From positions 1-47,628 of the forward strand of contig JAVCCH010000066.1 of the NCBI GenBank assembly GCA_030765535.1: a stretch of 47,628 bases of DNA. Reading direction: 5' to 3'. The translations under genes were made by a program, and so were the position numbers. This document shows, piece after piece, positions 17,567 through 19,365 of this stretch. Within the stretch, counting starts at the first letter, position 1. Every line of letters starts with the position of its first letter. This stretch comes from Candidatus Tenebribacter davisii (GTDB lineage: Bacteria; Cloacimonadota; Cloacimonadia; Cloacimonadales; TCS61). Below the pieces are notes generated by a model. That model saw only the letters and a list, made by a program, of their open reading frames with translations, did no database searches and had not been told where the DNA came from.

Positions 17567-18421
17567 TTACAATAGATTATCAAGATCATTATCAATTTTA
17601 TTATACGAGTCATCCAGTATTTTTTTTAATGTTACCTTTTGTATTTGCCTCACGCGTTCACGTGACAAACCAAGTTCTTCTCCGATCTGAGCGAAATTTT
17701 TAGATTTACCACTTTCCAAACCAAAATACTGCTTTATAATATATGTTTCACGAGGACCTAGAGAATTGATGGATTTATCAATACTCTCTTCAACTTTCTC
17801 ACGGTAGTAAAGGGTTTTAGGATCAACTTCTGATCTATCTGCCAGCAGGTCGCTTAAAGCAATATTGTTATGATTATTTGAGAAGTTAGCATTATCAATA
17901 GACAGAGTATTTTTAGCTTGTTTGTTAATTTTTTTTATTATAGTTTCATCAAGGTCAGTGATCTCAGAGATCTCTTTTACTGTTGCTTTATTTCCTGTTT
18001 CACTAAACACTTTATCTCTGGCATATTTTATTTTATTTGCCTGAGTTGCTTTACCCAGCGGCATTCGTATAATAGATGTTTTTTCTGCAAGGGCGAAAAG
18101 GATCTTCTGACGTATCCACCACACAGCATAAGAGATCAATTTATTTTGTTGTTCCGGCTCAAATTTATCGATCGCTTTGATCAGACCCATATTTCCTTCA
18201 CTAATCAGTTCAGAAAGTGTAAGTCCTCGATTCTGATATTTAGCTGCGATCTTTACAACGAATTTAAGGTTGGAAGTAACAAGTTTTTCGATTGCTACCT
18301 TATCTCCGCTCTTAGCCTTTATAGCAAGTTCATATTCTTCTTCCCTGCTCAGAGGATTGATCTCGGCTATCTGATTAAGATAGTTCTGTAATGCCTTATC
18401 ATTGAAAATATTCTCTGCCAT
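17567..18421 (-). CDS. rpoD: Primary-type sigma-70 factor (RpoD/SigA family, short form)
   Basis: A 284-residue sigma factor. Region 1.2 is ALQNYLNQIAEINPLSREEEYELA. Region 2 includes LVTSNLKFVVKIAAKYQNRGL, ELISEGNMGLIKAIDKFEPE and SYAVWWIRQKI. Region 3 follows IRMPLGK. Region 4 carries the -35-binding helix-turn-helix FAQIGEELGLSRERVRQIQK. The lack of a long region 1.1 and nonconserved insert, giving under 300 residues, matches the housekeeping sigma of Bacteroidetes and relatives. AAAGGAAT precedes the ATG. Whether it is the main sigma or a close paralogue cannot be settled from this window. Confidence 0.88.
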   Translation of the reverse strand: MAENIFNDKALQNYLNQIAEINPLSREEEYELAIKAKSGDKVAIEKLVTSNLKFVVKIAAKYQNRGLTLSELISEGNMGLIKAIDKFEPEQQNKLISYAVWWIRQKILFALAEKTSIIRMPLGKATQANKIKYARDKVFSETGNKATVKEISEITDLDETIIKKINKQAKNTLSIDNANFSNNHNNIALSDLLADRSEVDPKTLYYREKVEESIDKSINSLGPRETYIIKQYFGLESGKSKNFAQIGEELGLSRERVRQIQKVTLKKILDDSYNKIDNDLDNLL

Positions 18422-18441
18422 TTTATATTCCTTTTTCTTTC

Positions 18442-18545
18442 GACGTGATCAACAAGATACACAGGATCAAGTCTAAATTTTCTATCATTTCTTCTTTACC
18501 CTATCCTTTCACTTTTATCATGTTCATCCGGTTAATCCTGTCTGC
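18442..18545. repeat. 104-bp direct repeat, copy 1 (flanks GxxExxY gene)
   Basis: Starts GACGTGATCAACAAGATACA and ends TTAATCCTGTCTGC. It matches 18954-19057 at about 94 of 104 positions with no gap. Each copy has ACAGGAT near its left end and ATCCTGT near its right end, so each is itself a loose palindrome. Confidence 0.9.
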
Positions 18546-18549
18546 TTTT

Positions 18550-18930
18550 TTAGCTCAGGACTCTAACCTTTCTTTTAACCTGCACTTCTTTACTACTAAA
18601 ATTAATTAGTAGTCCTACATCAATTCCAGTAGCTGTGAGATAATTCACAAGTTGAACTTCATGGACTTTAGCCAATTCTTTAAATGCTTTCAGCTCTATT
18701 ATGACCTTATTCTCAACAACTATATCTGCTATGAAAAATCCAACTTCCTGTTCATCATAAAATACTTGTATTGATTTTTGTTGTTCAGCGCTTAATCCTA
18801 ATTTCTTAAGTTCAATCATCAGGCAACTTTCATAAACTGATTCAAAAAATCCACTTCCTAGTTTATTATAAACTTTATAAGATGCACCTATAATCTTATC
18901 TGTCAGATCAGCATATTTAAGTTCATTCAT
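18550..18930 (-). CDS. GxxExxY family protein (PDDEXK_3 nuclease fold)
   Basis: A 126-residue protein with the eponymous motif GFFESVY (Gly27, Glu30, Tyr33). A nuclease-like core follows: Asp69 (FIADIVV) and Glu79-Leu-Lys81 (IIELKA), i.e. a D-(x)n-E-x-K arrangement of the PD-(D/E)XK superfamily. The family is widespread, often linked to intervening sequences or dispersed repeats, and its biochemical role is not established. The gene lies exactly between two 104-bp direct repeats, as if moved or maintained as a unit, and separates the sigma factor from the MerR-like gene. Confidence 0.87.
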   Translation of the reverse strand: MNELKYADLTDKIIGASYKVYNKLGSGFFESVYESCLMIELKKLGLSAEQQKSIQVFYDEQEVGFFIADIVVENKVIIELKAFKELAKVHEVQLVNYLTATGIDVGLLINFSSKEVQVKRKVRVLS

Positions 18931-18953
18931 AATATTACCATCTTTATTCTTTT

Positions 18954-19057
18954 GACGTGATCAACAAGATAAACAGGATTGAGTCTAAATTTTCTATCAT
19001 TTCTTTTTCACTCTATCCTTTCAATTTTTTCATGTTCATCCAGTAAATCCTGTCTGC
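18954..19057. repeat. 104-bp direct repeat, copy 2 (flanks GxxExxY gene)
   Basis: Second copy, beginning GACGTGATCAACAAGATAAA and ending TAAATCCTGTCTGC, six bases before the MerR-like stop. It is about 90 percent identical to 18442-18545 by eye, with substitutions only. Confidence 0.9.
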
Positions 19058-19062
19058 ATTCT

Positions 19063-19365
19063 TTAAACCTGAAAATCATTAATATGATCATAGATAAAAT
19101 CCAGTAATTCATCATCATTCATATTAAGTTTTTTTGCAAAAGAAAATACGATCTTTACACCGGATAGATTCATGCCAAGTTCAGATGTCAATGTAATAAT
19201 TGTAGTGATTTTTGTTACATCATTCCTGGTGAAAAGTCGTGTATTATGATCAGATCTGATCGGCTTAATCAATCCTTTCCGCTCATACATCCTGATAGTT
19301 TGATCGTGAACGCCAAGCTGCTTAGCTACCTCTCCGATTTTTAATAATTTACCTTTATCTACCAT
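19063..19365 (-). CDS. MerR-family regulator, HspR-like
   Basis: A 100-residue protein with an N-terminal MerR winged helix: KIGEVAKQLGVHDQTIRMYERKGLI (residues about 9-33), with the RMYERKGL wing start and RSDHNTRLFTRNDV. A short helical tail with no cysteine or ligand-binding domain follows. The IRMYERKGLIxPxRSxxNxRxF pattern is that of HspR heat-shock repressors, though no dnaK or clpB gene is nearby. AGAGGGAAT precedes the ATG. It lies 16 bases after the LysM-M23 gene on the same strand, so it is probably co-transcribed with acylphosphatase and the peptidase. Confidence 0.82.
   Translation of the reverse strand: MVDKGKLLKIGEVAKQLGVHDQTIRMYERKGLIKPIRSDHNTRLFTRNDVTKITTIITLTSELGMNLSGVKIVFSFAKKLNMNDDELLDFIYDHINDFQV

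Follow-up and report, generated by a model that had tools for sequence, protein, structure and literature searches.

Palindromic repeats of intergenic spacers that are tied to a DNA-processing enzyme are known from REP-RAYT systems and from MITEs with their IS; RAYT is an HUH enzyme, and the ends of MITEs are one fixed sequence per family. Cyanobacterial STRR heptamer repeats are built of 7-nt tandem units. Enzymes of the Cas4, lambda-exonuclease and RecB types process DNA ends. Another small unit with repeated borders is the 23S rRNA IVS that encodes S23p. The IVS of Coxiella burnetii is 428 nt long, with complementary ends of 28 bp that form a stem (PMC4990558). Such elements lie in rRNA, encode a four-helix-bundle protein and are excised from the RNA by RNase III; they are described there as selfish, a transposition remnant has been proposed, and neither their role nor their origin is considered clear (PMC4990558). 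Here, we analyzed a 47,628-nucleotide stretch of DNA from Candidatus Tenebribacter davisii (hereafter, the window), in which a GxxExxY gene is bordered by repeats. Its locus lies between a sigma gene and a MerR gene and not in an rRNA gene, Pfam gives only PDDEXK_3 and no S23p, and the layout differs from that of an IVS in that the gene stands between two hairpins.

Results

The GxxExxY gene of the window lies between two hairpin repeats

The features of the locus are the following.

17567..18421, minus strand: sigma-70 family gene, the downstream neighbor, which makes a conserved junction with the MerR-like gene
18442..18547, minus strand: copy 1 of the hairpin repeat, which separates the stop codon of GxxExxY from the start of the sigma gene (alignment, RNA folding)
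18442..18467, minus strand: right arm of copy 1 in the minus-strand reading, an imperfect complement of the left arm (by eye and alignment)
18518..18543, minus strand: left arm of copy 1 in the minus-strand reading, three 9-nt units (by eye and alignment)
18550..18930, minus strand: GxxExxY gene, 126 aa, predicted PD-(D/E)xK nuclease fold (ORF list, profile matches, alignment, structure model)
18954..19059, minus strand: copy 2 of the hairpin repeat, which separates the MerR-like gene from GxxExxY (alignment, RNA folding)
18954..18979, minus strand: right arm of copy 2 in the minus-strand reading (by eye and alignment)
19030..19055, minus strand: left arm of copy 2 in the minus-strand reading (by eye and alignment)
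19063..19365, minus strand: MerR-family (HspR-like) gene, the upstream neighbor (ORF list and profile matches)

Read along the minus strand, the order is MerR-like gene, repeat, GxxExxY gene, repeat and sigma-70 gene. A preliminary description of this DNA had reported two gapless repeat copies, about 90% identical, that enclose a GxxExxY gene with 4 and 23 bases left beside it. We confirmed all of this: positions 18442-18547 and 18954-19059 are 90% identical over 106 nt, the gaps are as given, and the enclosed gene matches both TIGR04256 (GxxExxY; 146.7 bits against a cut-off of 35, E 3.5e-43) and PF13366 (PDDEXK_3; 143.3 bits against a cut-off of 22). The same description had taken ACAGGAT and ATCCTGT for the ends of the copies, which was a mistake, as both are single units within three-unit arms. 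The copies are themselves imperfect palindromes, with three 9-nt units making up each arm of about 26 nt. Read by eye along the minus strand, copy 1 has AGACAGGAT-TAACCGGAT-GAACATGA as its left arm and GATCCTGTG-TATCTTGTT-GATCACGTC as its right arm; within each copy the arms pair imperfectly. RNA folding yielded z values of -2.61 and -2.86 for the two copies relative to shuffles, with 3/200 and 0/200 shuffles folding as well, while Rfam gave nothing above the gathering score for positions 18300-19200. Furthermore, the repeat could be extended without gaps to 132 nt (18420-18551 and 18932-19063, 86% identity), and the extended repeat ends at the start codon of the sigma gene in one copy and of the GxxExxY gene in the other.

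A search of the genome of the window with the repeat returned 25 matches, among which only the two copies flanking the gene were convincing (next best E 0.099), so that the linkage of repeat and gene proposed earlier stood and a dispersed repeat family was rejected. The repeat is present at a single place, and no recent activity shows in this genome. A strict inverted-repeat scan gave one match in the window, three in 391 kb of the same genome (G000) and six in 390 kb of a sister genome (G007), compared with zero, three and two, respectively, in shuffles; it detected no convincing further element in the window or in the 391 kb, and it also missed the hairpins of the window itself. The same genome has a second GxxExxY gene, located between LemA and TPM-domain genes with another repeat pair of the CGCGAA class (L028 1199-1790, G000:C65), as well as three S23/PF05635 matches (G000, contigs C81, C65 and C68), one of them with an internal TAA.

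The GxxExxY protein is a predicted Cas4/lambda-exonuclease-like nuclease

Alignment of 21 relatives revealed that E30, D69, E79-x-K81 and Q93xxxY97 are invariant and that the PD-(D/E)xK active site is intact. No invariant position in this alignment is a cysteine, hence there is no conserved Cas4-type Fe-S ligand set. The AlphaFold2 model (mean pLDDT 94.8) had its best structural match in 4ic1 (SSO0001, a Cas4; E 2.8e-5), followed by LHK-exonuclease, lambda exonuclease, MGME1, RecE and the AddAB/AdnAB nucleases. Judging from this model, the protein has a Cas4/lambda-exonuclease-like fold. A sequence search for a homolog of solved structure found none that was convincing. PADLOC returned weak matches only, with Cas4a2 as the best one (E 0.0053), and membership in a defense system was rejected on that ground.

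Empty, solo-repeat and gene-bearing states coexist at the MerR-sigma junction

The MerR-sigma pair is conserved, and 30 loci carrying it were compared. In 14 of them, including one species of the genus of the window (G002), the spacer measures 3-23 nt, and in seven further loci with spacers of 35-105 nt no repeat of the window kind was recognized by eye. One hairpin without a gene is present in three members of the genus (G001, G004 and G005), two hairpins and a partial third, again without a gene, in G009, and one degenerate hairpin in G008. The gene is flanked by hairpins on both sides in the window genome and in G006, while in G007 several hairpins precede it and the contig ends after it. 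The junction of G015, from another genus, carries another arm class and two GxxExxY genes, of which one is full and the other truncated (L071). The proposal that gene and repeats form a mobile unit, made in the preliminary description, is thus supported by the finding of empty, solo-repeat and gene-bearing states at one junction in sister species, together with the gene-repeat association across phyla presented below. The empty sites that it suggested looking for are present in G002 and in the majority of the other genera, but the sisters also keep gene-less solo or tandem repeats.

Orthologs of the window gene occur at the same junction in G006 and G007. The differences at codon positions 1, 2 and 3 amount to 18/7/49 with respect to G006 and 18/10/50 with respect to G007, with dN of 0.090 and 0.104 and dS of about 1.3 (NG86) or 0.64 and 0.81 (LWL85). 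Since the differences fall mostly on third positions and dN is low compared with dS, the window gene is under purifying selection. At the protein level, the window GxxExxY is 82-83% identical to those of G006 and G007, which is similar to the identities of its neighbors among sisters other than G002 (sigma 82-85%, MerR 87-91%).

With a similarity of 0.90, the two repeat copies of the window resemble one another more than they resemble any sister copy (0.59-0.77), and those of G009 are likewise mutually closest (0.92), a pattern that fails in G006. The repeats therefore appear to have been duplicated or homogenized locally. It had been suggested that 90% identity dates the event as not very recent, which we could not support: this identity is not an insertion clock, given that no sister copy matches the two as well as they match one another, yet the gene has same-junction orthologs in two sisters. 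No target-site duplication could be assigned by eye at this junction, as sister spacers are too diverged and too short. We infer that the window locus is an old element that persists in G000, G006 and G007, whereas other sisters lost it and retain a solo repeat, though the repeat may also have come first and the gene later. One could also imagine that a local duplication of the 5' region of the sigma gene placed the second repeat before GxxExxY and that nothing is mobile here, an explanation that agrees with the extension of the repeat to the sigma start codon and with the mutual closeness of the two copies. We consider it very improbable, as a similar architecture with other arm sequences is found at other loci and in other phyla, and as G009 has tandem copies without a gene, while G001, G004 and G005 have one copy.

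Purine-operon and LemA-TPM junctions hold different arm classes in different species

Two junctions of the purine operon (purH end, purC/E fusion and purD, assigned with Pfam) were compared in eleven species, with the exception of purH-purCE in G005, which was not covered. Three arm classes were found, each with its own protein clade. Class K arms (CCGCAAAG) enclose the protein of G007 and others that share 71-76% identity with it, and they are located at purCE-purD in G007 and G006 and at purH-purCE in G001. Class D arms (CCACAGAG/CACGGAG) enclose proteins 56-60% identical to the G007 protein, at purCE-purD in G005 and at purH-purCE in G006, G004 and G009, while class T arms (CGAACAAAACTAAC) surround proteins 44-46% identical to it, at purCE-purD in G001 and G008. 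Also present were a solo hairpin at purH-purCE in G007 and a lone T right arm at purCE-purD in G004, as well as mixed arms, with K on the left and D on the right at purCE-purD in G009, and K on the left and T on the right at purH-purCE in G008. Neither purine junction holds such an element in G002, G011 and G012. G010 has none at purH-purCE and a different inverted repeat at purCE-purD (L350); by eye, this is a MITE-like repeat of about 18 nt, ACCCAGATAATGCAATAG...CTATTGCATTATCTGGGT, without 9-nt units.

Between LemA and TPM genes, a gene with CGCGAA arms is found in the window genome and in G001, solo or tandem CACAGAG hairpins in G004, G005, G007 and G009, and a CACGGAT hairpin in G006 and in G016, which belongs to another genus; no hairpin was recognized at this junction in G002, G010, G012, G013, G014 and G051. 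Presence/absence polymorphism at single sites, empty ones included, was thus observed at the MerR-sigma, purine and LemA-TPM junctions.

We also considered whether gene-less K-class hairpins dispersed in G007 are MITE-like copies mobilized in trans, but make no such claim, as they are mostly single unpaired arms. About ten isolated, partnerless K-class arms are scattered over this genome (L385-L394), apparently as relics. By eye, one of them (G007:C77, L393 ~617-650) falls inside an ORF, close to the C terminus and in its reading frame; it would read LTAKDAKNAK there, its 27 nt preserving the frame.

GxxExxY genes are associated with matching flanks in relatives and across phyla

The relatives' set comprised 123 distinct GxxExxY ORFs, mostly the best-scoring ones and not a random draw, of which 110 were scored and 13 dropped for short flanks. 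The sequence before each gene was compared with that after it, with score thresholds of at least 16 for inverted and at least 20 for direct matches. Inverted matches were found for 64/110 copies, compared with 4.7% of cross-locus pairings and 2/69 control ORFs, and direct ones for 45/110, compared with 1.9% and 1/69, respectively. Altogether, 86/110 copies showed one or the other, versus at most 3/69 controls. The multi-phylum set was drawn from the best-scoring 80 of 576 confirmed hits, which gave 79 ORFs and, after six had been dropped for short flanks, 73; here, either kind of match was present in 60/73 copies versus 0/39 controls, and inverted arms in 50/73. Neither match was seen in 24/110 relatives' and 13/73 multi-phylum copies; both samples lean to high-scoring, well-conserved genes, the scoring sets no exact arm ends, and the genomes are draft assemblies. 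It is our uncounted impression that many elements lie near contig ends. An earlier direct-repeat test with a score of at least 25 (40/108 versus 1/58) was replaced by this comparison of own with other arms, and a general inverted-repeat test with short windows proved too weak.

By eye, most copies take one of two forms. In the first, the gene lies inside the loop of a single inverted repeat, its start codon sometimes falling within the last unit of the left arm; in the second, seen in the window, it lies between two whole hairpins. Arm sequences differ widely between loci and match within a locus. The upstream neighbor is co-directional in 57/65 cases, compared with 38/60 control pairs (Fisher p 0.0017). 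By eye, a ribosome-binding site comes after the right arm. PF13366 matches were obtained in 78/117 relatives, and GxxExxY genes are present in many phyla. None of 19 pattern matches in viral contigs was confirmed as GxxExxY, PHROGs contained no match, and 8 of 72,556 plasmid records had one, so carriage by phages or plasmids was rejected. Rfam yielded no family above the gathering score for 20 GxxExxY loci. Taken together, that gene and arms form a unit, and that this unit is mobile, is well supported.

The polarity of the hairpins with transcription, the position of the ribosome-binding site after the right arm, the folding of the window copies and the persistence of solo hairpins before the sigma gene in sisters would also suit host regulatory or RNA-processing elements of operons, of the attenuator or REP-like kind, among which the GxxExxY gene is present incidentally. 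We regard this as quite unlikely: the same junctions in one genus hold three unrelated arm classes or none, most other genera have no hairpin, no Rfam family exceeds its gathering score, and arm class tracks protein clade across phyla.

The length and sequence of arm units follow the enclosed protein

The period of the arms was determined with the same test for all sets (lags 5-12, called when at least 15 of the 18 positions compared agreed); a plain 9-nt window test had been set aside, since codon periodicity confounds it and 11/60 controls reach its threshold. In the flanks of relatives' GxxExxY genes, the lag was 9 in 21 cases, 8 in four and 10 in four (29 callable of 116), and in the multi-phylum set it was 9 in nine, 10 in 15 and 8 in one (25 callable of 73), while 3/80 control flanks were callable. 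Around genes of the S23 family (PF05635), the lag was 7 in 11, 8 in five and 6 in one case in a first set (17 callable of 33), and 7 in 12, 8 in three, and 5 and 9 in one each in a second (17 callable of 29). Arm units thus measure 9-10 nt around GxxExxY and 7-8 nt around S23 genes, a period of at least 9 being found in 49/54 callable GxxExxY flanks versus 1/34 for S23 (Fisher p 9e-18, with related copies not independent). These four-helix-bundle genes have inverted arms in 15/31 and 18/29 cases, and those at L171-L200 and L355-L384 lie between inverted arms of 7-8-nt tandem units.

The fact that S23 genes, which lack a nuclease fold, share a similar architecture implies that a nuclease is not required for such an element. 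The element could accordingly be spread by host machinery or, like an IVS, at the RNA level, with the nuclease as cargo, for example a defense or repair enzyme, for which the weak Cas4-type PADLOC match might speak. This seems unlikely to us, as the dependence of the unit period on the gene family indicates that the enclosed gene is not interchangeable.

A protein tree was built for the 64 proteins with a callable period of 9 or 10 (190 instances were considered, and 76 gave a callable lag of whatever length). The period changes 10 times on this tree versus 19.1 times in shuffles (0/500 as low), a figure inflated by near-copies, and six times versus 11.0 on the 32 multi-phylum rows (0/300 as low). 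For protein pairs below 80% identity, arm similarity correlated with protein identity (Mantel r 0.285, n = 76, and 0.359, n = 114; 0/500 permutations each). Both arm sequence and period therefore follow protein phylogeny. Co-inheritance as one unit is enough to account for this correlation, which is no proof by itself that the protein acts on the arms.

Discussion

We conclude that the GxxExxY gene and its hairpin repeats probably constitute a compact mobile, and likely selfish, element, whose nuclease would act at the arms. The recurrence of a gene with locus-specific arms across distant phyla suggests that this very small mobile element is widespread. That the nuclease acts on the repeat arms is plausible in view of the intact active site and of the way in which arm class follows protein clade. 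The element would insert downstream of a stop codon, in the spacer ahead of the next ribosome-binding site, and for the most part along the direction of transcription, and we propose that the insert is tolerated inside operons because a ribosome-binding site stands after the right arm. The Cas4/lambda-exonuclease-like nuclease might recognize or process its arms, either as duplex or as extruded hairpin, and the resulting DNA ends could recombine with other copies or target junctions, leading to copying into other junctions. The same end-driven recombination could spread, duplicate, homogenize and delete repeats, and the solo and tandem hairpins of other sisters would most simply arise from recombination between direct repeats.

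More tentatively, and with rather more doubt than confidence, GxxExxY elements may represent a new minimal mobile class, namely palindromes of short tandem units that are propagated by a stand-alone Cas4/lambda-exonuclease-like protein. How long the unit is would be set by the enclosed family (9-10 nt with GxxExxY and 7-8 nt with S23), and the arm sequence would be free to diverge provided that both arms and the period fit the protein. If true, this would be one element class with an open-ended set of ends, and a source for part of the unexplained bacterial short tandem repeats and for rRNA IVSs.

Genes of the GxxExxY family are small and common, and no role has been assigned to them. With the periodic-arm rule, such a hypothetical gene becomes a mobile element that can be tested, and its arms are a defined DNA substrate for biochemical assay. 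The difference in period between two unrelated protein families predicts that each protein recognizes its own repeat length. The GxxExxY-hairpin element seems to be previously undescribed: the literature searched, most subscription papers being outside its coverage, contained no description of repeats around GxxExxY genes, and the mentions of GxxExxY in the accessible parts of it are incidental.

Among nucleases, the GxxExxY protein resembles Cas4, lambda-exonuclease and RecB-type enzymes in predicted fold and active-site layout, but differs from them as a stand-alone 126-aa core without conserved Cas4-type Fe-S ligands. Among repeat systems, REP-RAYT and MITEs differ from the present element in that GxxExxY arms are diverse and periodic and the enzyme has a predicted Cas4/lambda-exonuclease fold; the single fixed terminal sequence of a DNA transposon/MITE pair was not found, as there are many arm classes and the class follows the protein clade. 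STRR heptamers resemble the arms of S23 genes in their 7-nt units, but are not linked here to any gene and are not GxxExxY. S23/PF05635 genes located outside rRNA in the same genomes also lie between inverted arms that are specific to the locus and consist of short tandem units, although these units are 7-8 nt instead of 9-10 nt long and the proteins are unrelated. Through them, the arm rule links GxxExxY to the S23/IVS elements, for which both function and origin have been called unclear (PMC4990558). GxxExxY elements are like the S23p IVS in being about 0.4 kb long with one small ORF and complementary borders (inverted arms in 64/110 and 50/73), and unlike it in encoding a predicted PD-(D/E)xK nuclease, in occupying junctions of protein genes, in having arms of 9-10-nt units and in lacking an Rfam match in 20 loci.
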